A stretch of 45,218 nt of DNA from Calditrichota bacterium (lineage in GTDB: Bacteria > Zhuqueibacterota > Zhuqueibacteria > Thermofontimicrobiales > Thermofontimicrobiaceae), in contig JAADFU010000018.1 in assembly GCA_013152715.1 (NCBI GenBank), positions 58,616 to 103,833 on the forward strand. The letters are read 5' to 3'. Under the pieces are notes generated by a model. The model searched no databases. It saw nothing but the letters and a program-made list of their open reading frames with translations, and was not told the DNA's origin. A program made the position numbers and the translations under genes. Shown here piece by piece: positions 2,161-20,722 of the stretch (position 1 is the stretch's first letter; each line of letters starts with the position of its first letter).

Positions 2161-2169
2161 CGAGAAGAT

Positions 2170-2203: not shown

Positions 2204-2538
2204 GGTGAGAGTTTTTCTGAAGAAAGACAAAGGACGCTTATGAGTTGCGGTTCCCTGATGGGGCAAAAAAATCGCCGTGTCAATACTATCTTAATCAAAA
2301 AATGGCCAACAACCTCGGGTAACTATTCGCAGCAGTCCCCCATCTGATAAATTTCTTACACCTTTTCTGGCATTTTTTTTTGCATTGGGAAATTTCCAAA
2401 TATAAATTTGTCCAATTTGAGCGCGTTGCATTGTTTTTAATTTCATAAAAATTTGTCATTTTATCGAAAGTTAGTATAGACAGTTAACAAACAAAAACCA
2501 ATGCCAATTTTCCCTCGAACAAAAAATTAACTTATGTT

Positions 2539-2574
2539 ATTAATTTTAATAAAGTAAAAATCATTAAAATTAAT
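2539..2574. repeat. Perfect 12-bp inverted repeat upstream of the promoter
   Basis: ATTAATTTTAAT (2539-2550) and ATTAAAATTAAT (2563-2574) are exact reverse complements separated by 12 bp. The centre-to-centre distance is 24 bp, and the right arm ends 22 bp before the -35 box. This could be a dimeric regulator site. The arms are entirely A/T in an AT-rich region, so chance is a real alternative. Confidence 0.45.
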
Positions 2575-2596
2575 TCACATTTTTTTAAAATTTATC

Positions 2597-2625
2597 TTGA
2601 CAATATTTTAAAAATTATATATATT
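2597..2625 (+). promoter_or_regulatory. Predicted sigma-70-type promoter of the receptor operon
   Basis: TTGACA (2597-2602), a 17-bp spacer and TATATT (2620-2625) form a near-ideal housekeeping-type promoter. Transcription would begin near 2632, leaving a leader of about 240 nt before the first receptor gene at 2873. It is the best promoter match found in the intergenic DNA. Confidence 0.65.
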
Positions 2626-2872
2626 AGTTTATGTATGTCAAGCTAATGTCATAATATTTTCTTCAAATAATTATCATTCGATTTGCTTTCATCAAGCCAA
2701 AATTAGATGAACCACTAAAAAGTTGGTCTCATGTATAATTTATTTGAAAACCCTCCTAACTTGGGAAATAAAATCTCAACATCTCTGAAAACTCCAGACC
2801 CGAGCGAAAAAAATTACCCCATCAGAACAAATATATTGCAAAATTTACAAAAAACTAAGGGAGAATAGTGAC

Positions 2873-5800
2873 ATGAACAGGCTCATGACAGCTATTTTAG
2901 CGACGTTATTTGTCTCTGCGTCTTTGCTTTTTTCGGGAACGACGGGAAAAATTGCCGGGACCATTACAGATGCACAGACAGGCGCTCCTCTGCCTGGCGT
3001 GAATGTGATTATTGAGGGAACCAATTTGGGCGCCGCATCTAATCTTCAGGGATACTACGTCATCCTGAACGTTCCGCCCGGAACTTATACCATCAAAGCC
3101 ACAATGATAGGCTACTCCACTGAAACTTATGTCGATGTCCGAGTTAACATCGACCTCGCGACGACCATCGACTTCAAATTGAAAACACAAGTTTTGGAGG
3201 GCGAGGAAGTGACGGTAGTCGCCGAAAGGCCTATTGTTCAGGCGGACGTATCATCCAGTATGGCAAATATCCAATCCGAACAAATCAAAGCTCTGCCCGT
3301 CCAAAACATCGACGATGTTATTGGCATTCAGGCGGGTGTATTGGGAATGTCCATTCGCGGCGGCAGTTCTCAGGAGACAGCGTTTATGTTGGATGGTTTT
3401 ACGATGCGGGACGAGCGAACCAACCAGCCCTATTCCGCGGTGAGTCTGGCTTCCATTAAAGACATCCAGATTCAAACCGGCGGTTTTTCTGCTGAATACG
3501 GAAATTTGCGCTCCGGCATTGTCAACGTTGTTACCAAAGAAGGTGATTTCAATAAATACAGCGCGACAATTGACGTTCGCTACAGCCCGGCAGCGAAAAA
3601 ACATTTCGGACCTTCGGGCTACGATCCAAATTCTTACTGGAACCGTCCGTTTTTAGATGACGCCGTTTGCTGGACAGGTACAGAAGTTGGCGAGCCGTTT
3701 GACGATTTGAACGGAAATGGTACCTGGGATAGTAATGAACCCTTTACTGACTACAACAATGACGGCTCCCGGACTTACTGGAACGATTACACACAAAAAC
3801 AGTATCCCCGATTTGAAGGCTGGAATGCCGTGTCTGAGAGGACGCTTCAGGATGACGATCCGAATAACGATCTCTCTCCCGAAGCAGCCCAGCGCGTTTA
3901 TCGCTATCAACATCGCAGACAGGGGGACATCAAAAAACCGGATTATATCATTGACGGCGGTTTTGGCGGACCTGTTCCTTTTGTAAGTAACAAACTTGGC
4001 AATCTCCGCTTTTACCTTTCTCATCGCCAAGAACAGGACATGTATCTCATTCCGCTTTCCCGGGACGCTTACTCTGACAATGTAACAACTTTGAAATTAA
4101 CTTCCAATTTAACTCCTTCGATGAAATTGACCATTACCGGGCTATATGGTGAAATCCGTGCGACGAATAGCAACAATGTCGGCTTGCCCGGATATTTCCG
4201 CTCAACCGGTTCCATCGCTCGTAATTTAGGCAGGAGAAGCTACATCACAGCTATCATGTATGCTACGGATTACTGGTGTCCCACGAGCATTTATCGTCAC
4301 ATGGCATCGGCGAAATTGACCTACACCAAAAGCCCGAGCACATTTTACGAGTTTCATCTGGAACGCATCGGTAACATTTACCGCACGCGCCCCAACGCAC
4401 TACGCGACACGAGCAAAATTGTCAAAATTGGAAATGATTACTGGCTTGACGAAGCGCCTTACGGCTACATGCCCTATCCGAGTTCAGGAATCGACGGTCT
4501 GCGCATGGGCGTCGGCATGAGTAATTCGCGCGATTACAGTGAAATTTACACGACCACTGCGAAATTCAGTTTGACCAGCCAGGTTAACCCCACCAATCAA
4601 ATCAAAACCGGCGCTGAATTTATTTACAACGAACACTACGTAGAATACGGCGGGATTGATTTGACTTTACCCTCCGGCAGACCTTGGACTATCTGGGACA
4701 AACATCCTATCAGAGGAGCGGCTTACGTCACTGACAAATTGGAATTTCAGGGATTGCGCGCCAATATCGGTGTCCGCATTGATTACATCCACGCCGGTGG
4801 CACATGGTATGACATCGACAACCCCCAATTTTGGTATGACCGCGACTTTTTCAGCAGCAACTACACTGCTGACGTTGAAAATGAAGTGACCAAGAAAAAA
4901 ACAAAACGCCTTTACTACATCAGCCCGCGACTCGGTATTTCGCACCCCATTTCGGCAAATGCAAAACTTTATTTCAACTACGGACACTACCGCTCTATGC
5001 CTGACGCGGCGCGGCTGTACACCTTGCAGCGGGTCACAGAAGGCAGCGTTTCTCAAATTGGCAATCCAAATAATACGCCGAGCAGAACAGTTGCCTACGA
5101 ATTAGGTTACGAGCACAATCTTTTCAATCAACTCTTGCTACGCGTCGCTGGTTATTATAAAGATAATACACAGCAACCTAACTGGGTGCGTTACATCAGC
5201 GCTGACAGCAAAGTGAATTATCTGATGGCAGACGACAATTTTTACCAAGACATCCGCGGTTTTGAAATTACTTTAGAGCGATTGTATGGAAAATGGATTT
5301 ACGGCATGGTGAATTACACTTATCAGGTAGGTACCGCCGGCTATTTCGGAAAACTTCGCTATTATGAAAATCCGGCGGAACAACGCAGCTACGACCGGCA
5401 AAATATTTATCAGGAAAAGCCGTTGCCGCGGCCTTATTTCAAGGCGAACATTGTATTTCACACGCCTGTTGATTTTGGCCCCACGTACATGGGACGTAAT
5501 TGGCTGGGAGATTTGTTGCTAAGTTTTCGTTTCATGTGGCGCGAGGGAACCTATTCGACATGGACGCGCGGCGTAAGTCTTCCCGGCGTTAAATATAACG
5601 TTCAATGGCCTGATTATCACAACACGGACATGCGCATCAGCAAAAACTTCAAAGTCGGGAAATACAATCTGGAATTCTTCATGGATATCCACAATTTATT
5701 TAATTCGAAAATTTTCTCCTCTTATTCATTTGCTGATGGCAACGACTACCGCGATTATTTTGATTCGCTGCTCTGGCCAAAAGACGTCGGCGAACCGCTC

Positions 5801-6016
5801 GGTTACACAGAATTCGGCGACGATAAAATCGGCGACTTGAGACCGGCTAATGTCGCTTACGATCCCCTTGAGGCAAATCCGAACAGTGATCCGGAAATCG
5901 AAGCCCGCAATCAGCAGCGCAGAAAAACAAAATCCTATATTGATAATCCAAATCTGAAATGGCTGTATTACCTGAATCCGAGAGATATTTTCTTTGGTAT
6001 AAAAATTAATTTTTAA
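2873..6016 (+). CDS. TonB-dependent outer-membrane receptor 1 (Oar/SusC-like architecture)
   Basis: This 1047-residue protein starts with a signal peptide (about 1-22), then a carboxypeptidase-regulatory-like beta-sandwich (GKIAGTITDAQTGAPLPGVN, about 25-110), a TonB plug domain (about 125-225, with IRGGSSQETAFMLDG and AEYGNLRSGIVNVVT) and a long beta-barrel ending in an aromatic residue (GIKINF), as expected for barrel insertion. It should sit in the outer membrane and import a ligand using TonB energy. A motif rich in Asp, Asn and Gly at residues 277-298 (DLNGNGTWD, then EPFTDYNNDG) resembles a calcium-binding loop. The start is supported by AAGGGAG 9 nt upstream. It is the first gene of the operon, followed after 58 bp by an X-family gene, and is a clear paralogue of the receptor at 11582. 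No SusD homologue is adjacent, so a true SusCD pair is not supported. The ligand is unknown. Confidence 0.9.
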   Translation: MNRLMTAILATLFVSASLLFSGTTGKIAGTITDAQTGAPLPGVNVIIEGTNLGAASNLQGYYVILNVPPGTYTIKATMIGYSTETYVDVRVNIDLATTIDFKLKTQVLEGEEVTVVAERPIVQADVSSSMANIQSEQIKALPVQNIDDVIGIQAGVLGMSIRGGSSQETAFMLDGFTMRDERTNQPYSAVSLASIKDIQIQTGGFSAEYGNLRSGIVNVVTKEGDFNKYSATIDVRYSPAAKKHFGPSGYDPNSYWNRPFLDDAVCWTGTEVGEPFDDLNGNGTWDSNEPFTDYNNDGSRTYWNDYTQKQYPRFEGWNAVSERTLQDDDPNNDLSPEAAQRVYRYQHRRQGDIKKPDYIIDGGFGGPVPFVSNKLGNLRFYLSHRQEQDMYLIPLSRDAYSDNVTTLKLTSNLTPSMKLTITGLYGEIRATNSNNVGLPGYFRSTGSIARNLGRRSYITAIMYATDYWCPTSIYRHMASAKLTYTKSPSTFYEFHLERIGNIYRTRPNALRDTSKIVKIGNDYWLDEAPYGYMPYPSSGIDGLRMGVGMSNSRDYSEIYTTTAKFSLTSQVNPTNQIKTGAEFIYNEHYVEYGGIDLTLPSGRPWTIWDKHPIRGAAYVTDKLEFQGLRANIGVRIDYIHAGGTWYDIDNPQFWYDRDFFSSNYTADVENEVTKKKTKRLYYISPRLGISHPISANAKLYFNYGHYRSMPDAARLYTLQRVTEGSVSQIGNPNNTPSRTVAYELGYEHNLFNQLLLRVAGYYKDNTQQPNWVRYISADSKVNYLMADDNFYQDIRGFEITLERLYGKWIYGMVNYTYQVGTAGYFGKLRYYENPAEQRSYDRQNIYQEKPLPRPYFKANIVFHTPVDFGPTYMGRNWLGDLLLSFRFMWREGTYSTWTRGVSLPGVKYNVQWPDYHNTDMRISKNFKVGKYNLEFFMDIHNLFNSKIFSSYSFADGNDYRDYFDSLLWPKDVGEPLGYTEFGDDKIGDLRPANVAYDPLEANPNSDPEIEARNQQRRKTKSYIDNPNLKWLYYLNPRDIFFGIKINF

Positions 6017-6074
6017 CTAAAAATAAAATTAATCCGGCATTAGTTTGAATTATCTGAAAAAATAGAGGGTTAAT

Positions 6075-8246
6075 ATGAAACACAGCGAGAATAAATTTTT
6101 GCAAGGGATGCTAATTTTGGCAATCTGCTTTTTGCTTGTGACAGCAATTGCCAATGTCGCATTTTCTCAAGAAGTCAAATGGATAAAGATCGGATCGCTT
6201 CATTCTTGGTTTCGCGCCGATGGCTGCGAACCGGAAGTAGGCCGCACCGGACTGCAATCGGACCAGCAAGATGGTTTTCGCTGGCCTGCCATGTACCAAA
6301 AACAAGACAATGTTGCCGCCAAAGCGTTGTGGATTGGCACTTCAAATTACACTGATGCTGATCAGTACGGCGGAAATTTTTACCCTTACAAAGTTGTGCA
6401 TGTCGGCCCGCGCGGCTGGGACGTCAATCGTGAATTTATGCCCATCGAGTTCAAAATGATCGGCAAATTTGATCATCCGCGCGTTTATGTGGATGGCGTC
6501 GTCGGCTCCGAGCTCATGTGGGACGACCAAGTCGACGAAATTGACGATAATTTACCGTGCGACCGTATGATTTACAATGTGGTGAACACTTCCATCGGCA
6601 TCACGCTCACGAGAAAGATTTACGCCTGGGCGCAGCAGCGCAACGACAACTATTTTGTCACTGAATACATTTTCAAAAATACCGGCAATGTGGACAAAGA
6701 CGATGAAATCGAGCGACCAGATCAGACGCTGGAAAATGTCTATTTTTTCTTTCAGTATCGCTACGCCATAAGTCGCGAAGGCGCTGACGCTACTGATCTG
6801 AATTCCCCGCGTTGGGGAATTAATACCATGCTCAGCACCCGCGGCGAGGCCAAAGCGGCATACAGCTTTGGCACTTACAATTACACCGGCGATTACGAAG
6901 ACTGGCTCAACGGCGATACTGATGCCGATTCTCTGCGCTGCCAGTTTGCCTGGGCCGGAAAACACTCTCAAGCGAGCTATGATTTGCTTGGCTATCCCGA
7001 CGTCAAATACAAATCCGGCAGACTCATGGGACCGCAATTTATCGGTGTCGAAACGTTACATGCGGACAAATCTGCTGAAGATAAAAACGACGATCCGTTA
7101 CAGCCGACAACGACGACCTACCAGCAATCAGACGATCCGCCGACTCGTCCCAACGATCAATTCGACGCGTCGCGCATGGCTGAAGAGTGGAAATGGATCA
7201 CGCGCGGTCACCGTCTGCCGCGGCACGACGAACTTGTCGGCGACGGCTTCCCCGATCAATTGGAAGGAACGCCCGGCGGATTTTCCAACATGAACGGCTA
7301 TGGTCCTTACACGCTGGGCCCCGGCGACAGCATTCGCATTGTGGTTGCTGAAGGCGTTAATGGATTGGACAGAAAACTCTGTGAAGAAATTGGCAAAAAC
7401 TGGTATAAGAAAAATTCACCTTATACTTTGCCTGACGGTTCGAGTACCACAGATCCAGACGAATACAAAGATGCCTGGGTCTTCACGGGAAAAGATTCTT
7501 TATTCAAAACCTTCAGTCTGGCTCGCAGCAATTACAGCGCCAATTTTAACATTCCGCTGCCGCCTCCGCCGCCGAGCTTTTTTGAAGTCAAATCCGGCGG
7601 AGACAGAATTCGTCTCACCTGGGACGGCAACGCGGAATCATGGCCTAATTTCGCAGGCTATCGCATTTATCGTGCTGCTGCGAAATACGACACAACGTAC
7701 AATTTGATTTTCGCCTGCGGGCAGGGAACCGACTTCCCGGAAATTGTGCATTCTTATGATGACACTTCCGCGCATCGCGGCTATTCCTACTATTATTACA
7801 TTTCTTCTTTTGACGACGGAACCGCAGATCCTCAGGGTGAATTGCACAGCAGCATGTTCTGGACGCGAACCATCGAGCCGGCATTTCTGCGCCGTCCAGC
7901 CGGAGATAAATTAGCCGACATTCGCGTGGTGCCAAATCCGTACAACGTCAGAAACCGTGATTTCCAATATCCGGGAGAACCGGATAAAATCATGTTTTTG
8001 AACATTCCGGCTGAGTGTATCATTCGAATTTACACAGAGCGCGGAGATTTGATTAATACAATCATTCACGACGACGGCAGCGGTGACGAGTCCTGGAATT
8101 CCACAACTGAATACGGTCAGGTTGTCGTCAGCGGCGTCTATCTCGCAGTCTTTGAGGTAACCAATGACTACAAAGACCCGCAGACGGGCGAAGTGCTTTA
8201 CCGCAAAGGCGACAAAGAAATCAGAAAATTTATTATCATCAGATAA
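6075..8246 (+). CDS. Exported X-family protein A, with FN3-like and FlgD-like C-terminal domains
   Basis: I do not recognise the main domain. The 723-residue protein has a signal peptide (about 1-32, ending near AFSQ) and a unique N-terminal domain of about 450 residues that opens with IKIGSLHSWF. Next comes a fibronectin-III-like domain after a proline run (about 495-600, with IRLTWDG and FAGYRIYRA), then a FlgD-like tail from about 615 (VVPNPYNV, FQYPGEPDKIMFL, YGQVVVSGVY) ending in FIIIR. The tail resembles T9SS-type sorting domains but has PNPYN in place of NYPNPFNP. The neighbouring gene at 8280 is a close tandem paralogue; the copy at 14754 is more distant. GAGGGT precedes the ATG. Each X gene follows a receptor gene or another X gene, so a surface partner of the receptors is a reasonable inference, not a demonstrated role. 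Confidence 0.75.
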   Translation: MKHSENKFLQGMLILAICFLLVTAIANVAFSQEVKWIKIGSLHSWFRADGCEPEVGRTGLQSDQQDGFRWPAMYQKQDNVAAKALWIGTSNYTDADQYGGNFYPYKVVHVGPRGWDVNREFMPIEFKMIGKFDHPRVYVDGVVGSELMWDDQVDEIDDNLPCDRMIYNVVNTSIGITLTRKIYAWAQQRNDNYFVTEYIFKNTGNVDKDDEIERPDQTLENVYFFFQYRYAISREGADATDLNSPRWGINTMLSTRGEAKAAYSFGTYNYTGDYEDWLNGDTDADSLRCQFAWAGKHSQASYDLLGYPDVKYKSGRLMGPQFIGVETLHADKSAEDKNDDPLQPTTTTYQQSDDPPTRPNDQFDASRMAEEWKWITRGHRLPRHDELVGDGFPDQLEGTPGGFSNMNGYGPYTLGPGDSIRIVVAEGVNGLDRKLCEEIGKNWYKKNSPYTLPDGSSTTDPDEYKDAWVFTGKDSLFKTFSLARSNYSANFNIPLPPPPPSFFEVKSGGDRIRLTWDGNAESWPNFAGYRIYRAAAKYDTTYNLIFACGQGTDFPEIVHSYDDTSAHRGYSYYYYISSFDDGTADPQGELHSSMFWTRTIEPAFLRRPAGDKLADIRVVPNPYNVRNRDFQYPGEPDKIMFLNIPAECIIRIYTERGDLINTIIHDDGSGDESWNSTTEYGQVVVSGVYLAVFEVTNDYKDPQTGEVLYRKGDKEIRKFIIIR

Positions 8247-8279
8247 TTTTATCAAAATTCCCATAAAAAGAGAGGTCTG

Positions 8280-10481
8280 ATGCTTAATTTTAAAAAATAC
8301 CCAGTGTGGGAAACTCTGTTGACTTTAATCGTCACTTTTTCATTTTTTCATCAGGCGCCACTTTTTGCCCAGGAAGTCAAAGAGATCAAAATCGGCTCGC
8401 TGCACAATTGGTACCGTGAAGACGGTTGCGAACCGGAACATGGCTTCCTAAAAATTCAGCAAGCCGGTCTGGAATGGCCGGCGCAGTACCAGGACATGGA
8501 CTGTCAGGCGGCAAAAGCGCTCTGGATCGGAACGTCAAATTACACCGATGCGGACCAGTACGGGGGAAATTTTTTTCCCTACAAGGTCGTTCACGTAGGT
8601 CCGCGCGGCTGGGACACGCAAAGAGAGTTTATGCCCGTTGAATTCAAAATGATCGGCAGATTTGATCATCCGCTGGTTTACGTGGATGGTAATCCCGGTT
8701 CAGAATTGATGTGGGCTGACGTCATCGAGGAAGTTGATGAGAATCTTCCCTGTGATCGGTTGATTTACGACGTGGTGAATACGTCCATCGGCGTTACTAT
8801 GACGCGGAAAATTTACGGTTGGGCGCAGCAGTATCATGACAACTATTTTGTGTACGAATATATTTTTAAAAATACCGGCAATGTCGATAAAGACCCGGAC
8901 ATTGAAAAGCCTGACCAAAGCTTGGAAAATGTTTACTTTTTTTTCCAGTATCGCTACGCCGTCAGCCGCGAAGGTGCCACCTGGACCGGGCTAAATTCCC
9001 CGCGCTGGGGAATCAGCCAAATGCTCAGTTCCCGCGGCGAAGCCAAAGAAGAATTCAGTTTTAGCGATTATCATTACACCGGCGATTATGAAGATTGGCT
9101 GAACGGCGACCCTGACGCAGACTCGCTGCGCTGTCAATTTGCCTGGGCAGGAAAACATTCAAGCGCGAGCTACGACATAATCGGCTATCCGGATGTGAAA
9201 TACAAAACCGGCAGACTTTCGGGACCGCAATTCGCCGGAGTTGTTACGCTACACGCGGACAAATCTCCTTCTAACAAAGACGATGACCCGCAACAGCCAA
9301 CGACCACGACGTACCAGCAGTCAGACGATCCCCCCACTCGTCCCAACGATCAATTTGATGCCTCGCGCATGGCCGACGAATGGAAATGGATCACAAGAGG
9401 CCACAGGTTACCGCGGCACGACGAATACGTCGGAGACGGCTTCCCCGATCAGTTGGAAGGCACGCCGGGCGGATTTTCCAACATGAACGGCTACGGCCCT
9501 TATCAACTGGCCCTGGCCCCCGGAGACAGTGTGAGACTGGTAATCGCCGAAGGCGTCAACGGTCTCAATCGTCAGCTTTGCCAACAAATCGGAGCAAGAT
9601 GGATTAAAGCGCACAACAATTCTGCGGATCAGGGCCCGTTTGACCTTCCGGATGGGACGACTACCACTGACGAAGATGTTTACAAAGATTCCTGGGTAAT
9701 GACTGGCAAAGATTCTTTGTTTAAAACATTTGGCAGAGCTCGGAGAAACTTTGTTGCAAATTTGCAAATTCCCATGCCTCCGCCGCCGCCTTCGGTTTTT
9801 GAGGTAAAATCCGGCGGCGATCGAATAAGATTGTCATGGGCTGAAAATGCAGAATCATGGCCCGGATTTGCCGGCTATCGCGTTTATCGCGCCGTAGCAA
9901 AATATGACACAACTTACAACGAAATTTTTGCCTGCGGCGAGGGTACGGATCACCCGGAAATTGTGAACACGTATGACGACACTTCAGCGGTTCGCGGCTA
10001 TTCTTATTACTATTACGTTGTCTCTTTTGACGATGGGACTAACAATACGAATCCAGCGACAAATCCGACGGGGTCTTTGCACAGCAGCATGTTCTGGACG
10101 CGCACCATTGAACCGGCTTTTTTGCGCAGACAGGCGGGCGATGCATTGTCAAAAATCCGCGTGGTACCTAATCCGTACAATGTTCGCGCGATTGATTTCC
10201 AGTACCCCGGTGAGCCGGACAAAATAATGTTTTTGAATATTCCTGCGGAATGCATCATTCGTATTTATACGGAAAGAGGCGATTTAATCAAGACTATCAT
10301 TCATGACGATGGTAGCGGCGATGATTTTTGGAATTCGGCGACGAAATACGGACAAGTAGTCGTCAGCGGCGTTTATATCGCTCTTTTTGAAGTTACCGCT
10401 GATTACGCGGATCCTCAAACCGGAGAGATTCTTTACAAAAAAGGCGAGCGCGAAATTCGCAAATTTGTGATTATTCGATAG
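8280..10481 (+). CDS. Exported X-family protein B, tandem paralogue of protein A
   Basis: This 733-residue protein is collinear with the previous gene product and nearly identical over long stretches (for example TTTTYQQSDDPPTRPNDQFD is shared exactly, as is FPDQLEGTPGGFSNMNGYGP). It has a signal peptide (about 1-30), the unrecognised N-terminal domain, an FN3-like domain with IRLSWAENAESW and FAGYRVYRA, and the FlgD-like tail ending in FVIIR. Differences include a short insertion near residues 446-452 (KAHNNSADQGPFDLPDG) that makes it resemble the third copy, so the copies may have exchanged segments. The gap to the previous gene is only 33 bp, and AGAGAGG precedes the ATG at 8280. The role is unknown; it is inferred to act at the cell surface with the neighbouring receptors. 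Confidence 0.75.
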   Translation: MLNFKKYPVWETLLTLIVTFSFFHQAPLFAQEVKEIKIGSLHNWYREDGCEPEHGFLKIQQAGLEWPAQYQDMDCQAAKALWIGTSNYTDADQYGGNFFPYKVVHVGPRGWDTQREFMPVEFKMIGRFDHPLVYVDGNPGSELMWADVIEEVDENLPCDRLIYDVVNTSIGVTMTRKIYGWAQQYHDNYFVYEYIFKNTGNVDKDPDIEKPDQSLENVYFFFQYRYAVSREGATWTGLNSPRWGISQMLSSRGEAKEEFSFSDYHYTGDYEDWLNGDPDADSLRCQFAWAGKHSSASYDIIGYPDVKYKTGRLSGPQFAGVVTLHADKSPSNKDDDPQQPTTTTYQQSDDPPTRPNDQFDASRMADEWKWITRGHRLPRHDEYVGDGFPDQLEGTPGGFSNMNGYGPYQLALAPGDSVRLVIAEGVNGLNRQLCQQIGARWIKAHNNSADQGPFDLPDGTTTTDEDVYKDSWVMTGKDSLFKTFGRARRNFVANLQIPMPPPPPSVFEVKSGGDRIRLSWAENAESWPGFAGYRVYRAVAKYDTTYNEIFACGEGTDHPEIVNTYDDTSAVRGYSYYYYVVSFDDGTNNTNPATNPTGSLHSSMFWTRTIEPAFLRRQAGDALSKIRVVPNPYNVRAIDFQYPGEPDKIMFLNIPAECIIRIYTERGDLIKTIIHDDGSGDDFWNSATKYGQVVVSGVYIALFEVTADYADPQTGEILYKKGEREIRKFVIIR

Positions 10482-10530
10482 ATCAAGAAAATACAAAAAA
10501 ATCAACCATATCAGTTAAGGAGATTTTACA

Positions 10531-11547: not shown

Positions 11548-11581
11548 TCAAACCACGAACATAAATGAGGATGGGTGAGCA

Positions 11582-14500
11582 ATGGGAAAAATTCCCTTTT
11601 ATTTGCTAATAATCTTTTTAAGCGCTGCGATGGCGCTGAACGCAGGCACGGTGGGAAAAATTTCCGGGAAAGTAAGCGATTCGCAAAACGGAGCGGTTTT
11701 ACCGGGCGTGAACGTCATCATTGAAGGCACAAATGTCGGCGCGGCAACCGATGCCGGGGGCTATTACGTCATCATAAACGTCCCGCCGGGAAATTATACA
11801 CTGAAATTTTCCATGATTGGCTATGCCGAGTATAAAGTAGAAAATGTGAACGTCATAATCGATCAGACAACAACAATTAACGCTGCGCTGAAACAGGAAG
11901 TAATCGGCGGAGAAGAAGTTGTTGTGGTCGCCGAAAGGCCTGTCGTGCAGAAAGATATTTCCAACAGTCAGATGAGTATCATGTCGGAAACGATCCAGGC
12001 CTTGCCCGTGGAAAACGTGCAGCAAGTTTTGACTTTGCAGGCGGGAATCGAAAAGGACAGACAGGGCATTCGCGTTCGCGGCGGCAGTGCTTCGCAGACG
12101 ATTTTCATGTTGGACGGCCTGTCTATGAATGACGAACGCGCCAATATTCCCTACACCGCCGTCAGCCTCAGTTCCATTCAGGAAATTCAGATTCAAACCG
12201 GCGGCTTTAATGCGGAATATGGCAATATTCGATCAGGGCTGGTCAATATCGTCACTCGCGAAGGCGACCGCAGCCGGTACAGCGTAAGTTTGTCCGTTCG
12301 GTACGGGCCGGCGGCAAAAAAGCACTTCGGACATTCAATTTACGACCCTTACTCTTATTTCAATAGGCCCTATCTAGATCCGACTGTGTGCTGGACAGGC
12401 ACGATGAACGGCGAACCTTTTGAAGATTCGAACAACAATGGCGTCTGGGATACGGGCGAACCTTTTACCGATTACAACGGCGACGGCGTCCGCAGTTATT
12501 GGGACGCACACACACAGCGACAATATCCGCAATTCGAAGGCTGGAACGCTGTCTCCTACGCCACGCTCCGCGACGACGATCCGACCAACGATTTGACGCC
12601 GCAGGGAGCGCAAAGACTGTTTGAGTGGCAGCATCGCCGCCAGGGCGATGTCAAAAAACCGGACTATGTTGTTGATTTCGGCTTTGGTGGTCCCGTGCCT
12701 TTTTTGAACGAAAAATTAGGTAACCTTCGTTTTCATCTGTCGCATTTCCGGGAAAAAGAATTGTTCGTCTTCCCGCTGTCACGCGACGGATATTTTGACC
12801 AGCATACGCAGCTAAAATTGACGTCTGACATCGCGCCAGGCATGAAATTATCTTTCCTCGGACTGTACGGCAAAATTTCTTCGGTTTCACCCTATAGCTG
12901 GACAACGACACCGACCGGCTACGTCCTTCGCGATCAGGCACAAATTGCCAATTTGGTGCACAGCAGCAGCGGAAACAGTGTCGTTTACATGCCCGGTTAC
13001 TACAGCCCCACCGATATTTACCGCAGTTTGTTGGGTCTAAAATTCACGCACACGTTGAGCCCGCGTACATTTTACGAGGTCAATGTGCTGAATAAAGGCA
13101 GCCGCTACGACACGTACCAGATGACGCCGCGCGATACCACGAAAAAGTTTGAAATCTTGGACAACTTTTTTGTTGATGAGGCGCCTTACGGCTATTGGGG
13201 CTACGGCGTTCCCGGAATCGACGGCATGAGTCTGGGCGGCTGGATGAATTTGGGAAGAGACAGCACAGTGAATTCCACGACTTCGTTGAAATTTGACATC
13301 ACCAGTCAGGTAAACAATAATAATCAGGTAAAAGGCGGATTTGAAATCGTTTACAATGATTTCAACATTCGCTCCGGCACTTACAGCCCTTCCATGAATA
13401 CCTGGACTCGCAGCCAGCGTTATCATGTATTTCCGTTTCGCGCTGGCATTTACGTTCAGGATAAAATGGAAATTCAGGGCTTTATCGCCAACATCGGCCT
13501 GCGGCTTGATTATTATGATTCCAATTCAAAAAAATATCTGTTGAGCCAGTACGACAAATATTTCAGCGCCGGCTACGGCAAGCTGATCGAACGAGACCTT
13601 TCCTCGGAAGACACCAAAGCCAGTTGGGACGCTAGTCCGCGTCTGGGAGTTTCTCATCCGATCACTGACAATTCAAAATTATATTTTAACTATGGCCATT
13701 TTCGTTCTGAACCAGCTTCGACGTACCGTTTTCGCATTCAACGCGAGTCCAGCGGATTGGTTACGTCCATCGGCAATCCGGAATTGAAACCGGAAAAAAC
13801 AGTGGCCTACGAGCTTGGTTTTTCTCAAAATTTATTGGACATGTTTTTGTTGAACATCGCCGCTTATTACAAAGATGTGACTGATCAAATCGGCTGGGTT
13901 TATTACCAAAATGTGAACAGTTCAGTACAATACAACAAGCCGGAAAACAATAACTACGCTGACATTCGTGGCTTTGAATTGACGCTGACTAAGCAAAGAG
14001 GAAAATGGTTTACCGGATTTGCGAATTACACTTATGACGTGCGCACTTCCGGCTATTTTGGCCTGTTACGCTATTACGAAAACCCGACCGAGCAGCGCAC
14101 CTATCTCAAAGAAAATCCGTATCAATCCAGACCACGACCTCGTCCCTACGCGCGGCTGAATCTGGATTTTCACACGCCGGATAATTTCGGGCCTCTTTGG
14201 CTGCGGCTGAAACCACTTGCCGGCTTGAGACTGAATGTTTTAGCGGAATGGAAATCCGGGCGTTACGAAACCTACAATCCGAACAGCATTCCGGGGATCG
14301 TGGATGATGTTCGCTGGAAAGATTATTTTAATGCGGATTTGCGCCTGTCCAAGCTTTTTCACATCAGCAAATATGAACTCCAGTTTTACGTTGACGTTTC
14401 CAATGTTTTTAATAACAAATACCTGACTGCCGGGTTCTTTGAATATCGAAATTATGCCGGATTTGCCGACAATCGCGATTATCTCGCTTATCTGGAATCC

Positions 14501-14734
14501 CTTAATTTTTCATGGGAAGACGGCGTAGAACATGGAAATGATCGCGTGGGCGAATTTCGGCCGGTCGGTGTGAAATATGATCCCTTGGAGCCGAATCCTA
14601 ACAATGATCCTGAAATTGAAGCGAGAAACAAAAAACGAAAAGAGACGAAATCGTATATTGACAATCCCAATATTGAATCGTTAGCTTTCATAAATCCGAG
14701 ACACATCATGCTCGGAGTCACGATCAATTTTTAA
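11582..14734 (+). CDS. TonB-dependent outer-membrane receptor 2, paralogue of receptor 1
   Basis: The 1050-residue protein repeats the architecture of receptor 1: a signal peptide (about 1-22), a carboxypeptidase-regulatory-like domain (GKISGKVSDSQNGAVLPGVN), a plug domain (IRVRGGSASQTIFMLDGLSM; AEYGNIRSGLVNIVT) and a beta-barrel ending in MLGVTINF. The predicted calcium-type loop is kept at residues 281-302 (DSNNNGVWD, EPFTDYNGDG). Conservation with receptor 1 is strong in the N-terminal domains and the C-terminal strands, and weaker in the middle of the barrel, where ligand-contacting loops usually lie. The two may therefore recognise different ligands. It is followed after 19 bp by the third X gene, repeating the receptor-then-X order seen at 2873-8246. 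The ligand is unknown. Confidence 0.9.
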   Translation: MGKIPFYLLIIFLSAAMALNAGTVGKISGKVSDSQNGAVLPGVNVIIEGTNVGAATDAGGYYVIINVPPGNYTLKFSMIGYAEYKVENVNVIIDQTTTINAALKQEVIGGEEVVVVAERPVVQKDISNSQMSIMSETIQALPVENVQQVLTLQAGIEKDRQGIRVRGGSASQTIFMLDGLSMNDERANIPYTAVSLSSIQEIQIQTGGFNAEYGNIRSGLVNIVTREGDRSRYSVSLSVRYGPAAKKHFGHSIYDPYSYFNRPYLDPTVCWTGTMNGEPFEDSNNNGVWDTGEPFTDYNGDGVRSYWDAHTQRQYPQFEGWNAVSYATLRDDDPTNDLTPQGAQRLFEWQHRRQGDVKKPDYVVDFGFGGPVPFLNEKLGNLRFHLSHFREKELFVFPLSRDGYFDQHTQLKLTSDIAPGMKLSFLGLYGKISSVSPYSWTTTPTGYVLRDQAQIANLVHSSSGNSVVYMPGYYSPTDIYRSLLGLKFTHTLSPRTFYEVNVLNKGSRYDTYQMTPRDTTKKFEILDNFFVDEAPYGYWGYGVPGIDGMSLGGWMNLGRDSTVNSTTSLKFDITSQVNNNNQVKGGFEIVYNDFNIRSGTYSPSMNTWTRSQRYHVFPFRAGIYVQDKMEIQGFIANIGLRLDYYDSNSKKYLLSQYDKYFSAGYGKLIERDLSSEDTKASWDASPRLGVSHPITDNSKLYFNYGHFRSEPASTYRFRIQRESSGLVTSIGNPELKPEKTVAYELGFSQNLLDMFLLNIAAYYKDVTDQIGWVYYQNVNSSVQYNKPENNNYADIRGFELTLTKQRGKWFTGFANYTYDVRTSGYFGLLRYYENPTEQRTYLKENPYQSRPRPRPYARLNLDFHTPDNFGPLWLRLKPLAGLRLNVLAEWKSGRYETYNPNSIPGIVDDVRWKDYFNADLRLSKLFHISKYELQFYVDVSNVFNNKYLTAGFFEYRNYAGFADNRDYLAYLESLNFSWEDGVEHGNDRVGEFRPVGVKYDPLEPNPNNDPEIEARNKKRKETKSYIDNPNIESLAFINPRHIMLGVTINF

Positions 14735-14753
14735 CAAAACCAGGGAATGAAAA

Positions 14754-16916
14754 GTGAACATAAAGCAAAAAAGCAGACAATTTGCACTATTCATTTGCAT
14801 CGCACTGATGAGTACAATTATTTTTCAAATAACCCCTGCCAAAGCACAAGTTGCCGGAACAGAGAAACGATACATCCGCATTGGTTCTTTGCAGAGCTAT
14901 TTTTCTGCCTACGGCTCGGAGCGGGCATGGAACAATTCCTATTACGAAGGACTCGTTTGGCCGGCGGATTATCTGCAGCAAGACAACGCCGTGATCAAGC
15001 GAGCGTGGATTGCGGTGCCGGATTTCACTAATCCTGAAGGCAAACATTACGACTACTACGGAATCTATTTTGCCAGGGATGAATATGTGGATGTTTCTCT
15101 TTTTCCTATGGAATTAAAACAAACGGCCAAATTCGCGCCACCCATGGTCTACGTGGACGGCAACAATATTTCCGCCATCTACTCCGGAGACATTGACGAA
15201 ATTAATCCCGACCAAATTGCGGATCGTATCGTCACGAATGTAGTCAATACCTCCATGGGACTTACACAGACGCGGAGAATTTACGCTTTCAGCCAGCAGT
15301 ATCACGACAACTATTTTATTAAAGAATTTATTTTTAAAAATACCGGCAATACGGATTACGACGACGACATTGAGCTGCATCAAACGCTAAAAGGCGTAAG
15401 AATTGGCTGGGGCATCCGCTACAGCGTCTGCCGTGAGGGGGCGAGAAAAATCGACGGGCCGCAGACCTGGGGACAGCACACTTGGGTCACCAAACGCGGC
15501 GAAGATTATCCCAGTCACGCGAACGAAGTTATTACCGAGGCCAATCCCATCGTCGAATGGATTCGCGGCGCGTTTGCCTGGGCCGGGCAATCTTCCACGA
15601 ATAATTATGATAATATCGGAGCTCCGGACATGACCGGAAACGGTCGCTTGTGTTCACCGCAGCACGCAGGAATTGGCATTCTTCACGTGGACAAAAGCGC
15701 GACCGACAAAAGTGACGATCCTTACCAGCCAGCGGTTTTGGGCTGGCACGCCGGAGACACCTATCCTAAATTAGGTGACATGTCCGCTGATTACGAAGAT
15801 AACATGAAATATCTTTACGAAATGCTCAGCGGTGTACCTTATCGCGGGCTCGGCGGCACCGACCGTTTCGACGAAACTTACATGGCGACGCATCCGGATC
15901 CGTACACAGTTCACAACGATGGCGGGGGAACAAATATGTGGATTTGTTATGGGCCTTTTGATCTCGCTCCCGGAGACAGCATTACCATCGTTGAAGTGGA
16001 AGCTGTGAACGGACTAAATCGCCAACTATGCGAACAAATCGGCGCGAACTGGAAACATGCCTACGATGATCCGACAGACAAAGGACCTTTTAAATTGCCG
16101 GATGGATCAACTACCGACGACAAAGACACCTACAAAGATAGCTGGGTTTACACCGGCAAAGATTCCATCATGTTAACTTTTAGCCGGGCGAAAAGAAATT
16201 ACGATTCCGGCTTTCAGATTCCTCAGCCGCCGTTGCCGCCGCCTGTTTTTGAAGTGAGTTCGGGTGGCGACAGGATTTTCCTGAGATGGACGGCAAGCCC
16301 TTCGGAAGACCAATCCGATTTTGCCGGCTATAAAATTTACCGCGCCGTCGGTAAGCCGGATACGACCTACCAAAAAATTTATGAGTGCAGTCCCGGCGTG
16401 ACAGAATTTGAAGATGTTACGGCGATTCGTGGGTACAGTTACTACTATTACATTGTCGCAGTCAACAACGGCGACAATAATACATCCGGCGAGCTGAATC
16501 CGACCGGGCAGCTTCACAGCAGCCGTTTTTACACAAGAACCACAGAACCGGCCTTTTTGCGAAGAAAACCAGGCTCAAAGTTAGACAGCATTCGCATTGT
16601 GCCCAATCCGTTCAACATCAGAGCTAAAGATTTCCAGTATCCCGGCGAAGCGGACAAAATCATGTTTTTGAATATTCCCGGGCATTGTACCATTAATATT
16701 TACACTGAACGGGGCGATCTGATTGAGACGATTCATCACGAAGACGGCAGTGGAGACCATGAGTGGAATTCCATCACTTCGTCGCGCCAGGTTGTAGTGA
16801 GCGGAATTTACATTGCTGTTTTCACTGTGACTCAAGATTACAGCAATCCGGACACAGGGGAGATTATTTTCAGAAAAGGGAATTCGACATTCAAAAAATT
16901 CGTTATCATTCGATAA
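14754..16916 (+). CDS. Exported X-family protein C (diverged third copy)
   Basis: This 720-residue protein is the diverged third member of the X family. It has a signal peptide (about 1-31, ending PAKAQ), the unrecognised N-terminal domain (here RIGSLQSYFSAYGSE), an FN3-like domain (IFLRWTASPSEDQSDFAGYK) and the FlgD-like tail (IVPNPFNI, FQYPGEADKIMFLNIPGH) ending in FVIIR. The start is GTG, chosen because it gives the signal peptide and lies 8 nt after AGGG; the ATG at 14747 is in another frame. The N-terminal half has diverged strongly from copies A and B, while the tail and the domain junctions stay similar. This fits specialisation together with receptor 2. The function is not known. Confidence 0.75.
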   Translation: MNIKQKSRQFALFICIALMSTIIFQITPAKAQVAGTEKRYIRIGSLQSYFSAYGSERAWNNSYYEGLVWPADYLQQDNAVIKRAWIAVPDFTNPEGKHYDYYGIYFARDEYVDVSLFPMELKQTAKFAPPMVYVDGNNISAIYSGDIDEINPDQIADRIVTNVVNTSMGLTQTRRIYAFSQQYHDNYFIKEFIFKNTGNTDYDDDIELHQTLKGVRIGWGIRYSVCREGARKIDGPQTWGQHTWVTKRGEDYPSHANEVITEANPIVEWIRGAFAWAGQSSTNNYDNIGAPDMTGNGRLCSPQHAGIGILHVDKSATDKSDDPYQPAVLGWHAGDTYPKLGDMSADYEDNMKYLYEMLSGVPYRGLGGTDRFDETYMATHPDPYTVHNDGGGTNMWICYGPFDLAPGDSITIVEVEAVNGLNRQLCEQIGANWKHAYDDPTDKGPFKLPDGSTTDDKDTYKDSWVYTGKDSIMLTFSRAKRNYDSGFQIPQPPLPPPVFEVSSGGDRIFLRWTASPSEDQSDFAGYKIYRAVGKPDTTYQKIYECSPGVTEFEDVTAIRGYSYYYYIVAVNNGDNNTSGELNPTGQLHSSRFYTRTTEPAFLRRKPGSKLDSIRIVPNPFNIRAKDFQYPGEADKIMFLNIPGHCTINIYTERGDLIETIHHEDGSGDHEWNSITSSRQVVVSGIYIAVFTVTQDYSNPDTGEIIFRKGNSTFKKFVIIR

Positions 16917-16974
16917 AAATAAATTAAGAAAACAAAAATTCTAATAATCCCTGCTATTTGAAAGGAGAAATAAA

Positions 16975-18174
16975 ATGAAAAAGCTTCACGCAATTTCAAT
17001 TATTACGCTGATTTTGCTCACCACCGCCTTTTTCTTTGGCTGCGAAAACAAATACCCTGAGAGTCTCTGGGACCCCAATGCTCCTGCCGGCGCGCAGCCT
17101 GTTATCGAGCAAATAATTCCGGCAGACAGCACTTATGCCGGCGTCGGTGAAATTGTCATCAAAGGAAAAAATTTCTCATCGGTTAAAGATTACGACTTGG
17201 TCTTTGTCGGCGGCAAAAAAGCCGAAGTCGTTGCCGCGACTGAAACACAAATTACTATTAAATCACCGGTTATTATTGGGGATTCGTTGGAGATAAAAAT
17301 TGCTGTTCACAAGACTGATCTTTTTAGCGACCCGGTGTACTATAAATTGAAAGCAGCCGTTTCTGTCATCGGTAATTTGGCAGAAAACAACTGGATGGCT
17401 TACGCCATTGCTGCGGATAGAGCGGGTAATGTCTACGTTGACATTGAGGGGAAATTACTCAAAAAGATTGACACCGAAGGAAATGTAACCCATGTCGCTG
17501 ACGTTACTTTTCTCAAAGCGAACGGTATGAAATACGGCCCTGACGATAAAATTTATGCTGTTTTTGCTGCGGGACGTGTGAAAAAGGTGGCAACTGTAGA
17601 CACTTCAGGCGCCGAGGGAACATACGTAACACTTCCCAAAGAGCCAAAGGATATTGATTTTGATGCCAGCGGAAATGCCTGGGTCACGGTCGACACTGAT
17701 GTCTACCTCGTTAAGCCCGACCAGAGTAAAACGAGCGTCAAAACTTTTCCTTTAAAACTCAAAACGATTCGTGTTTTCAATGATTATATTTATGTGTCAG
17801 GATTTGATGACGCAACAGGGGAAGGAAAAATCTGGCGAGCGCCGATTCAAGGAGAGACGCTCGGAGACGAGGAAGTATTTTTAGACTTTGCAAACGAGGA
17901 TTGGCTGACGGGCATTACGGTGAATTCTTTCACTTTCGACGTCGATGGCAAAATGTATCTCGCGACTGATAATACGGACGGAATTTTAATTTACAATCCC
18001 GCGGATGGCAGCCATGAGGCTCTATTCCCAGGATTAATTGCCCCGAATGTCTGGGCGTTCTGCTGGAGCGAAGGTAATTTCTTGTTTGCGATTCAACAAT
18101 TAGACTCTTATTCCAATATCCTGAAAATTGACGTTGGCAAAACCGGAGCTCCTTATTACGGTCGTCAACTTTAA
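16975..18174 (+). CDS. Lipoprotein with IPT/TIG domain and beta-propeller
   Basis: The 399-residue product has a lipoprotein signal (hydrophobic segment, then FFGC with Cys at residue 23), so it is probably lipid-anchored to a membrane. An IPT/TIG immunoglobulin-like domain follows at about 38-125 (VIEQIIPADSTYAGVGEIVI, then KGKNFSS). Residues about 130-399 form repeated blades of an NHL/SMP-30-like beta-propeller (AADRAGNVYVDIEGKLLKKI; FDVDGKMYLATDNTDGILIY). AAAGGAG precedes the ATG. Lipoproteins next to TonB-dependent receptors often bind ligand at the surface, as SusD and SusE do, but this fold is unlike SusD. It may be a ligand-binding or structural partner of receptor 2 and X protein C. 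It has no sorting tail, in contrast to its neighbours, which fits the lipid anchor. Confidence 0.75.
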   Translation: MKKLHAISIITLILLTTAFFFGCENKYPESLWDPNAPAGAQPVIEQIIPADSTYAGVGEIVIKGKNFSSVKDYDLVFVGGKKAEVVAATETQITIKSPVIIGDSLEIKIAVHKTDLFSDPVYYKLKAAVSVIGNLAENNWMAYAIAADRAGNVYVDIEGKLLKKIDTEGNVTHVADVTFLKANGMKYGPDDKIYAVFAAGRVKKVATVDTSGAEGTYVTLPKEPKDIDFDASGNAWVTVDTDVYLVKPDQSKTSVKTFPLKLKTIRVFNDYIYVSGFDDATGEGKIWRAPIQGETLGDEEVFLDFANEDWLTGITVNSFTFDVDGKMYLATDNTDGILIYNPADGSHEALFPGLIAPNVWAFCWSEGNFLFAIQQLDSYSNILKIDVGKTGAPYYGRQL

Positions 18175-18221
18175 TTTATTTCAAAATCTGTCGATCTTTT
18201 TGAAGTTTAATAAACCTGATT

Positions 18222-18240
18222 GAGAGGAGGTGATATCTCT
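18222..18240 (+). promoter_or_regulatory. Orphan extended Shine-Dalgarno-like element in the loop of a small hairpin
   Basis: GGAGGTGAT here is a 9-nt match to the complement of a typical bacterial 16S rRNA 3' end, far longer than the sites before the genes in this window. No gene starts at suitable spacing: a GTG at 18230 overlaps the motif and would encode only about 15 residues. Arms GAGA and TCTC could present the motif in a loop. The true site of the next gene (GAGGAGG near 18306) is separate. It may be a remnant start, a ribosome standby site or a leader peptide. Confidence 0.35.
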
Positions 18241-18316
18241 TAACCCAACGGGGGAATACTTCTATTTATTCAATTAATTTTTTGTATCATCAATCATTAA
18301 TTTTGAGGAGGTTTGT

Positions 18317-20548
18317 ATGCAAAAAGCAAAATTGCTACTATTGTTATTCCTAACTATCTCGCTGGCGGTGCCGGCGCTGTCGCACGCCTGGGTCAAAGAA
18401 AGAGGCCCGGCATGGCAGTATGACAGCGTTTTTGCCGACTCAGCGGCTACCGGGGAAAAATATGTTTCCGGCGGACATGGCATCGTCGTGGACAAATATG
18501 ACCGCGTTTGGTTAGGAAGCTACTATGCCGGCAATACAGGAGGTATTGTCGTTTTGAATGCTGACGGCACACCGACTGATTTTTCACCGATTGATTCAAT
18601 TGCCTTCGCGGATACCACTTTCAATCTGGCGAAAACCAATGGCTGCCGCGGAATGAATGTGGACAAAGATGGCAACATTTTGTATGCTAACAAAAGCACA
18701 TTAATCAAAATTGATGTCGAGACAGGTCAAGGGTTGGCGTATTGGGTTGGCCCCGGTAGTTTGACCAAACCGGCTGTAGATTCCGAAGGTTACATTTATA
18801 TCGGTAAAGTTGTTGGCGTGGGTCCCATCAGCGTGTTGGATCCTGCTACTTTCGATGTGACCCAAGAGATCACGTTAGAACCTGCTGCCGGATATACTCG
18901 CGGTATCGAGGTAGCTCCGGATGGAAAAACGATCATCTCCGGAAATTTAAGCGCCGGCGGACCCGTTTATATTTATACCACCGAAGACTACGTCACTTAC
19001 ACCATGACGGATAGCCTCTATCTTGACGATTACGGACAGAATATTTTCAAATTCCAGTGCGTTACCATGGATTGGGGTCCGGACGGAAAATTGTGGATTT
19101 CTCACGATGATTCCTACGCTGCCACGGGAAAATACGAGAATGGTTTTGTCGTAGTAGACCTCAACACAAAAAAATATAGCTATTTCTTTGTGCCCATGGA
19201 TTCCACAGAATACAACGGGCCGCGCGGTATTGCGTTCACCAATGACGGCAACACCGGCTATTTCACCAGTTTTACGGCAAACAAAGCTTTCAAAATCACA
19301 CGTGCCGAATTAATGTCTCCGGGCGAGTGGGTTTACGATGACGGATTGAATGTCGGCTGGAGCTTTGACAGCTATCTTGATTCGCTCGAAACCGGTGAAA
19401 AACTTGTATCCGGCGGTCATGGCATCGTTGTTGATAAATATGATCGTCTTTGGATCGGAAGCTACTATGCCGGTAACACTGGCGGAATTATTGTTCTGAA
19501 TCCCGATGGCACACCGACCGATTTTTCTCCGATTGCATCGGTAGCTTTCTCGGACACGACTTTTGATCTGGCAAAAACAAACGGCTGTCGCGGAATGAAT
19601 GTTGACAAAGACGGCAATATCCTTTACGCGAACAAGAGCACTTTGATCAGACTGAACGTGGAAAACGGTGAAGGTTTGAACTACTGGGTCGGTCCTGGCA
19701 GTTTGACCAAGCCGGCAGTGGACGCGGAAGGTTACATTTATGTCGGCAAAGTCGTGGGCGTGGGACCAGTTAGCGTTTTGGATCCGGCTACTTTCGATGT
19801 CACTCAGGAAATCACACTGGATCCGGCGCCAGGTTATACTCGCGGTATTGAAGTTTCCCCTGACGGGAAGACGATCATTTCTGCAAACCTGTCCGGCGGT
19901 CCTGCCTATATTTATACGACAGAAGATTATGTTACCTATACTTACACTGACAGCATTCTGGTTGATACCGGCGGCTACCCAGTTTTCAAATATCAGGTCG
20001 TAACCATGGACTGGGGCCCGGACGGAAATCTCTGGATTTCGCACGATGATTCTTACGCCGCAACCGGACGCCACGATAATGGCTTTGTCGTCGTGAATCT
20101 GGAAACAAAACATTACGATTATTTCAATATGCCTGAAGATTCCACAGAATACAATGGCCCGCGCGGCATTGCTTTCAATAGCACTGGCGATATTGGCTAC
20201 GCAGTAAGTTTCACTGCCAGCAGAGTGTACAAAATCGTCCGCACCGGAACAGATGTGCAGATTAAAGATTTTGTGCAATTGCCGAAAGAATATATTCTGG
20301 ATCAAAACTATCCCAACCCGTTCAATCCGACCACAACAATTCCTTTCAGCCTGCAAAAATCGGGCAAAGTTGAACTCAAGGTTTTCGACATTCTCGGACG
20401 GGAAGTGATGACTCTGATCGATCGTCGCATGCAGCCAGGGTACCACAAAGTTACTTTTGACGGAAATGGGCTGGCTTCCGGTGTTTACCACTATCGTCTG
20501 AAATTTGACGGACAGGTTTACACAAAACGCATGCTGCTGCTCAAGTAG
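18317..20548 (+). CDS. Exported tandem-duplicated beta-propeller protein with T9SS-like sorting tail
   Basis: The 743-residue product has a signal peptide (about 1-24, ending LSHA), two near-identical halves of about 314 residues, and a C-terminal sorting domain (DQNYPNPFNPTTTIPFSL, about 655-743) ending KRMLLLK. Each half carries SGGHGIVVDKYDR, YYAGNTGGI, KTNGCRGMNVDKDGNILYAN and WGPDGxLWISHDDSYAATG, typical of NHL/SMP-30-type beta-propeller blades. It is the last gene of the operon, 142 bp after the lipoprotein gene and followed by a terminator. The strong SD GAGGAGG supports the start. It probably works outside the cell as a binding module; enzymatic activity is possible for SMP-30-like propellers but no active site can be claimed. 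The blade style resembles the preceding lipoprotein, so the two may be related. Confidence 0.8.
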   Translation: MQKAKLLLLLFLTISLAVPALSHAWVKERGPAWQYDSVFADSAATGEKYVSGGHGIVVDKYDRVWLGSYYAGNTGGIVVLNADGTPTDFSPIDSIAFADTTFNLAKTNGCRGMNVDKDGNILYANKSTLIKIDVETGQGLAYWVGPGSLTKPAVDSEGYIYIGKVVGVGPISVLDPATFDVTQEITLEPAAGYTRGIEVAPDGKTIISGNLSAGGPVYIYTTEDYVTYTMTDSLYLDDYGQNIFKFQCVTMDWGPDGKLWISHDDSYAATGKYENGFVVVDLNTKKYSYFFVPMDSTEYNGPRGIAFTNDGNTGYFTSFTANKAFKITRAELMSPGEWVYDDGLNVGWSFDSYLDSLETGEKLVSGGHGIVVDKYDRLWIGSYYAGNTGGIIVLNPDGTPTDFSPIASVAFSDTTFDLAKTNGCRGMNVDKDGNILYANKSTLIRLNVENGEGLNYWVGPGSLTKPAVDAEGYIYVGKVVGVGPVSVLDPATFDVTQEITLDPAPGYTRGIEVSPDGKTIISANLSGGPAYIYTTEDYVTYTYTDSILVDTGGYPVFKYQVVTMDWGPDGNLWISHDDSYAATGRHDNGFVVVNLETKHYDYFNMPEDSTEYNGPRGIAFNSTGDIGYAVSFTASRVYKIVRTGTDVQIKDFVQLPKEYILDQNYPNPFNPTTTIPFSLQKSGKVELKVFDILGREVMTLIDRRMQPGYHKVTFDGNGLASGVYHYRLKFDGQVYTKRMLLLK
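18440..20250 (+). repeat. Internal tandem duplication of the propeller-coding segment (period 942 bp)
   Basis: The coding sequences of the two propeller halves are offset by 942 bp, exactly 314 codons, as judged from the matching GGCGG(A/T)CATGGCATCGT sites at 18470 and 19412. Protein identity is very high, but third positions differ widely, so the duplication is not brand new and the protein is under constraint. Confidence 0.8.
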
Positions 20549-20575
20549 TTTTTGTTTGAGCTGTTATCAAACATA

Positions 20576-20604
20576 GCCGGCGAAAATTTTTCGTCGGCTT
20601 TTTT
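20576..20604 (+). terminator. Rho-independent terminator ending the receptor operon
   Basis: GCCGGCGA pairs with TCGTCGGC (one G-U pair) and is followed by TTTTTT. It lies 28 bp after the propeller gene stop and closes the operon. The stem sequence and its tail TTTTTTATTA are nearly the same as in the terminator at 23837-23884. Confidence 0.88.
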
Positions 20605-20722
20605 ATTATGAATTCTCCGAAAAAAGTGACCTTAAATGTTGATTTTCATAATTTTTTTAACTAAATTTCATTGAGAGAACTTTTAGCCAGATTGAATTTG
20701 AAATCATTGAACGGGAGAATCT

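Follow-up and report, generated by a model that had tools for sequence, protein, structure and literature searches.

A conserved module of TonB-dependent receptor, exported protein and PorV-family barrel: a proposed uptake system linked to type IX secretion in a Calditrichota bacterium

An eight-gene operon was analysed in a 45,218-nucleotide stretch (the window) of the 4.15 Mb draft genome of a Calditrichota bacterium; the window lies within contig C18 (JAADFU010000018.1, positions 58,616 to 103,833). The operon occupies one strand (+, 2873-20548) and encodes, in order, TonB-dependent receptor 1, two copies of a putatively exported protein here called X (X-A and X-B), a PorV/PorQ-family barrel, receptor 2, a third copy of X (X-C), a TIG/propeller lipoprotein and a double propeller. 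SusD is the receptor partner used by gut Bacteroides. We consider it reasonably probable that the operon serves TonB-dependent uptake in which X, exported by the type IX secretion system (T9SS) and anchored by PorV, would stand in the place of SusD, here to feed on the glycans of peptidoglycan.

X genes accompany receptors and diverge with them

In what follows, X proper denotes the family defined by the N-terminal domain of X-A, X-B and X-C, and an X-type protein is one that has an FN3 domain and a tail of the same class as that of X. A profile of the X N-terminal domain matched at least 55 of 60 related genomes. A named scan yielded 78 X loci, found through X alone, from KSB1, Calditrichota, Ignavibacteria, Marinimicrobia and one Balneola, and the nearest named relatives by X genes were metagenome-assembled genomes of candidate division KSB1. 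No X was found in a plasmid search.

Of 95 X genes, 84 were directly downstream of a receptor and on the same strand, with a median gap of 22 bp. Five of the others stood at contig ends and six in other arrangements, so that a receptor directly precedes 84 of the 90 X genes whose upstream neighbour could be read; among 506 other open reading frames in the X loci, 6 come after a receptor. Among the six exceptions, one was the second X of a tandem and three had a receptor one gene further upstream. The initial annotation had asked whether X genes neighbour receptors across genomes, and in several phyla they do. The commonest order downstream of X was PorV, TIG-propeller and T9SS propeller, the TIG lipoprotein being conserved across loci.

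Some loci depart from this order. In one exceptional case (L104:6541-11965), the gene before X encodes a 1091-aa protein with a T9SS tail and not a receptor. In Calditrichota, an extra gene of about 313-341 aa with no Pfam match is found between receptor and X (L148:626-1564, L154:4301-5323 and L157:1325-2338), and in Ignavibacterium loci its homologues come after X and before PorV.

The arrangement is repeated within the genome of the window, where genes for an X-type protein and a PorV-family barrel come after most large receptors. At least 13 such modules are present, and one further copy is ordered receptor-PorV-X (L178). Across 13 modules, protein distances were correlated between receptor and X (Mantel r = 0.92), receptor and PorV (0.88) and X and PorV (0.88; each p = 5e-5 by permutation). 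Species history cannot explain this co-divergence, because the modules are paralogues within one genome. Eleven loci carry two receptor-X pairs, and in 55 of 55 (non-independent) comparisons between these loci each type of receptor kept its type of X. In the window, identity is 77% between X-A and X-B, 49% between X-A and X-C and 50% between X-B and X-C, and receptors 1 and 2 share 53%. The pairing of receptor and X by shared divergence, originally proposed from this one operon, extends both within the genome and across two-pair loci.

The X tail resembles the C-terminal domains of PorZ and PorU

The three copies, X-A (723 aa, 6075-8246, +), X-B (733 aa, 8280-10481, +) and X-C (720 aa, GTG start, 14754-16916, +; the proposed partner of receptor 2), are homologous end to end. 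Each has a Sec-type leader, an N-terminal domain of about 460 residues, an FN3 domain and a C-terminal domain (CTD). The leaders end in FSQ, FAQ and AKAQ, as judged by eye, with no lipobox Cys, and the three tails are marked by 288-bp DNA repeats.

The identity of the tail (7908-8243, +, in X-A) was sought by profile comparison. A profile of 17 X-type tails from the genome of the window aligned with the type A T9SS tails of the same genome (hhalign probability 98%, E 6e-15). Against the PDB, its sole convincing matches were PorZ (E 5e-5) and PorU (E 1e-3), whereas the type A tails, serving as the control, matched FlgD, PorU and released cargo, with PorZ at just E 0.14. FlgD was rejected as the identity of the X tail, which did not match it although the related type A tails did. 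Of the architecture given in the initial annotation, the signal peptide, unrecognised N-terminal domain and FN3 domain stand, but the FlgD-like tail is replaced by a T9SS CTD. By these profile comparisons, the tail is a diverged T9SS CTD of the retained kind, closest among solved structures to those of PorZ and PorU. In Porphyromonas gingivalis, the domain stays on the CTD proteins PorU and PorZ, which PorV and PorQ hold at the surface (PMC5562754, PMC5121618).

The T9SS translocon gene SprA is present in the genome of the window (SprA_N E 3e-34, in a 2119-aa frame), and we infer that X is secreted through this system. In Stygiobacter electus, a receptor plug is encoded on the same strand 4-6 kb upstream of each of the five strong matches to the tail; weaker, type A-like tail matches were not placed downstream of a receptor plug.

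A PorV/PorQ-family barrel as the probable anchor of X

Gene 4 of the operon (338 aa, 10531-11547, +) encodes an outer membrane barrel that exceeds the cut-off of the PorV/PorQ family model (NF033709, 202 against 90 bits). It is not a true PorV or PorQ equivalog, scoring 93.6 against a cut-off of 250 bits and 86.7 against 220 bits. The genome of the window has 25 PorV-family genes above the family cut-off. Gene linkage, the similarity of the CTDs and the co-divergence of X and PorV suggest that this barrel is probably the cognate anchor or shuttle of X.

Two known arrangements are comparable. The PorQ-PorZ and PorV-PorU pairs of the T9SS attachment complex likewise combine a CTD protein with a PorV/Q-family barrel; here, however, such pairs occur in many copies that are linked to receptors, and the N-terminal domain of X is unrelated. 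Type B CTD proteins are served by a cognate PorP/SprF barrel, the gene for which lies immediately downstream (PMC12618676), and this barrel may anchor them (PMC9143113). They share with X a cargo-specific outer membrane barrel, the gene for which usually follows that of the cargo, but the CTD of X did not match the type B model (TIGR04131) in the NCBIfam scan, and its barrel belongs to the PorV/PorQ family.

With such a tail and barrel, X might be an ordinary T9SS surface protein, such as an adhesin or coat protein, that PorV delivers and that shares a transcript with a receptor but has no role in uptake. FN3 and CTD domains do occur in many T9SS proteins, and PorV-family proteins have a role of their own in secretion. 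However, X-type proteins are nearly always linked to a receptor or PorV, whereas the other CTD proteins of the window have no such linkage, and the paralogues co-diverge with their receptors and never swap partners. A role outside uptake consequently appears quite improbable, and X is better regarded as a probable partner of its receptor.

The N-terminal domain of X has a predicted supersandwich-like fold

The N-terminal domain of X-A (460 aa, 6171-7550, +) was not matched by any family model in Pfam and NCBIfam scans, in keeping with its initial description as unrecognised. AlphaFold2 modelled mature X-A with high confidence from 83 homologues (pLDDT 92, pTM 0.88), and the N-terminal domain alone was predicted to be beta-rich (pLDDT 91, pTM 0.91). 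Its best Foldseek matches were a GH15 dextran dextrinase, GH94 phosphorylases, GH116, aldose 1-epimerase and copper amine oxidase, the shared fold of which we take to be the beta-supersandwich. The model suggests that the domain is a supersandwich-like domain of a carbohydrate-binding type.

These matches raise the possibility of a catalytic X, the supersandwich-like domain of which would process substrate enzymatically at the mouth of the receptor. Such a role could be accommodated by the near-invariant polar residues of mature X (D46, D108, D131, R132, D159, H297 and D299) and by the resemblance to aldose 1-epimerase, but that resemblance is weak (target-normalised TM-score 0.42), and the similar glycosidases and phosphorylases catalyse in a separate alpha/alpha-barrel, which X lacks. 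A catalytic X is therefore considered very improbable. Its identification as a cellodextrin-phosphorylase-type enzyme was rejected, as only the supersandwich-like region aligned and the catalytic barrel was missing. A structural match to a known unrelated enzyme would have counted against the initial annotation; the prediction resembles non-catalytic supersandwich domains and not a whole enzyme.

The N-terminal domains of X and of the other X-type proteins gave a local profile match (probability 73%, P 3e-5) and are bridged by one sequence, L044_3 (E 3e-10). A common origin of all X-type N-terminal domains is likely from these profiles, although not proven.

The module is SusCD-like but has no SusD

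Both receptors carry CarboxypepD_reg_2 and Plug domains. In receptor 1 (1047 aa, 2873-6016, +) these gave E 3e-20 and 4e-9, respectively; in receptor 2 (1050 aa, 11582-14734, +), Plug gave E 2.5e-8 and the barrel model was also matched (PF00593, E 2.5e-27). Both score far below the threshold of the SusC/RagA model (TIGR04056; 54.5 and 81.8 against 368 bits). The two main SusD families (PF14322 and PF07980) were absent from the genome of the window by their models, which accords with the earlier suggestion that X is a non-SusD partner.

In the SusCD/RagAB systems of Bacteroidota, as in this module, a receptor with CarboxypepD_reg and plug domains precedes an exported partner encoded with it, and a genome has many paralogous pairs that adjoin hydrolases. 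They differ in that the partner here has a T9SS CTD and is accompanied by a PorV-family barrel. X itself was tried as a SusD and rejected: it resembles SusD in being encoded beside a SusC-like receptor, but it has no Pfam or NCBIfam SusD match, no lipobox, and a beta-rich model instead of an alpha-helical TPR-type fold. By analogy, the receptor-X module would function like SusCD, yet it is not a SusCD pair. The combination of receptor, X and PorV was not found in literature searches, which lay mostly outside subscription journals.

Neighbouring enzymes point to peptidoglycan

The gene that follows the operon (20723-23827, +) encodes a 1034-aa T9SS-tailed GHL10 glycosidase (PF02638 E 1e-39; Por_Secre_tail), which is a conserved neighbour of the cassette. 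Among the matches listed, both GHL10 and X occurred in 44 relatives; in at least 25 of these GHL10 was within 15 kb of X, and at least 30 GHL10 genes were within this distance where about one was expected under a uniform model. The denuded-glycan hydrolase DigH of E. coli presumably belongs to the same family as GHL10. A GHL10 domain is the peptidoglycan lytic-transglycosylase domain of Cwp19 (PMC6016235), and the activity of DigH is described in PMC12288456.

Other enzymes accompany the cassette elsewhere. NamZ, of the exo-N-acetylmuramidase family, is encoded just upstream of the receptor in L158, L159, L160 and L161, with GHL10 at the opposite end of the cluster; the order is NamZ-receptor-X-PorV-TIG-propeller-GHL10 in L158, L159 and L161, and L160 has a two-pair version of it. 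T9SS-tailed Amidase_3, and also NlpC/P60, flank the cassette in Ignavibacteria and related loci. GHL10 (as in Cwp19), NamZ, Amidase_3 and NlpC/P60 are all peptidoglycan-active families, and because four of them surround one cassette, several with secretion tails, extracellular peptidoglycan would be the best substrate candidate. Known peptidoglycan hydrolases of these families differ from the cassette neighbours in that several of the latter have T9SS tails, which implies action outside the cell on foreign wall material.

The same module and mechanism might instead serve another substrate, i.e., another glycan, a glycopeptide or protein fragments. The GHL10 family is broad and mostly of unknown specificity, an amidase of a different family (PF01425) is encoded upstream of the operon in the window, and other modules of the same genome adjoin an alpha-amylase, a GH106 rhamnosidase, a GH38 mannosidase and an S9 peptidase. 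These varied neighbours indicate that the module type is not peptidoglycan-specific, and they fit a general uptake platform. For the X cassette, however, four different peptidoglycan-active families recur in different lineages, and NamZ acts on N-acetylmuramic acid, a sugar specific to peptidoglycan. A substrate other than peptidoglycan is thus thought unlikely for this cassette, and peptidoglycan glycan is retained as the candidate.

A Reg_prop/Y_Y_Y sensor kinase and a LuxR-type response regulator are encoded upstream of the GHL10/X cassette in Stygiobacter electus (L122:3-3764) and several other loci, and are a candidate substrate sensor.

Remaining features of the operon and the window

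The same-strand reading frames of the operon are separated by 58, 33, 49, 34, 19, 58 and 142 bp, which confirms the eight-gene operon as first described, and a terminator-like hairpin is indeed present 3' of it (20575-20599, +). The strong promoter described upstream could not be upheld. A putative TTGACA-17-TATATT site (2597-2625, +) agrees with the sigma-70 consensus at 11 of 12 positions, but 40 promoter-like sites were seen over 2000-21500 where 29 were expected, and the operon promoter is not established because the leader is very AT-rich and this consensus may not fit the phylum. A perfect 12/12 site on the minus strand (2614-2641) overlaps the candidate and points away from the operon.

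Gene 7 (399 aa, 16975-18174, +), a conserved member of the cassette, encodes a lipoprotein with a lipobox-like signal (FFFGC), a TIG domain (PF01833 E 8e-10) and a propeller-like C-terminal part with weak propeller matches. Gene 8 (743 aa, 18317-20548, +) encodes a secreted double beta-propeller with a type A T9SS tail (TIGR04183 E 3e-10) and has homologues in 42 loci. It is an internal duplication, the halves of which share 78% amino acid identity over 297 aligned columns and 75% DNA identity (18449-19238 and 19391-20177). A shorter form of about 430 aa, the size of a single propeller, occurs in many relatives.

Elsewhere in the window, a T9SS-tailed cohesin protein (23901-26669) adjoins two GDSL-lipase/dockerin proteins (26796-28640 and 28709-30559) on the minus strand; these proteins may form a cohesin-dockerin assembly on the cell surface, here outside the classical hosts of cellulosomes. 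Large T9SS-tailed proteins of PKD and divergent InlB-type repeats are encoded at 36135-45195, also on the minus strand.

Discussion

The operon may be understood as two TonB-dependent uptake modules, in each of which a receptor works with a surface protein X. T9SS-secreted GHL10, amidase and NamZ enzymes would cut foreign or dead-cell peptidoglycan outside the cell and release glycan. X would be exported by Sec, then cross the outer membrane through the T9SS by means of its CTD, and would be kept on the surface by continued binding of the CTD to the PorV/PorQ-family barrel of its own operon, in the way that PorQ holds PorZ. The supersandwich-like domain of X could then bind substrate fragments and pass them to the adjacent receptor, which would import them with TonB energy, while the lipoprotein and the secreted propeller might assist substrate capture. 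The uptake reading of the initial annotation is supported, but that annotation had missed the T9SS CTD, the PorV-like gene as probable cognate anchor and the enzymes that point to peptidoglycan.

Several observations weigh against this interpretation. Synteny and co-divergence show co-inheritance, not contact. The X tail passes neither the type A (TIGR04183/PF18962) nor the type B (TIGR04131) CTD model in the Pfam and NCBIfam scans. When partial correlations were used to ask whether the X tail tracks PorV and the X N-terminal domain tracks the receptor, the associations were weak over 13 modules (C-P|T 0.25, N-T|P 0.53), and in some cassettes a single PorV gene accompanies two or more receptor-X pairs. 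The fold assignment is tentative, because the N-terminal domain aligns with supersandwich proteins at low TM-scores (about 0.3, with a best target-normalised value of 0.42). The NamZ neighbour is absent from the window itself, and peptidoglycan is not the established target of every GHL10 protein.

A broader proposal is offered tentatively: the modules may represent a general, unnamed class of nutrient importers of the outer membrane in the Fibrobacteres-Chlorobi-Bacteroidetes (FCB) group, in which the role of SusD falls to a T9SS-exported protein whose PorZ/PorU-type CTD is not cleaved and fixes it permanently to a PorV-family barrel of its own, with X as the first known receptor system for peptidoglycan glycans, used to feed on necromass.

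If true, this would explain the uptake of large substrates without or alongside SusD in KSB1, Calditrichota, Ignavibacteria and Marinimicrobia, which are widespread and mostly uncultured; cultured carriers do exist in Stygiobacter, Melioribacter and Ignavibacterium. It would also give many extra PorV-family genes a function as cargo-specific surface anchors and link the T9SS directly to transport. Should the substrate prove to be peptidoglycan, the cassette would provide a gene marker for the turnover of bacterial necromass.
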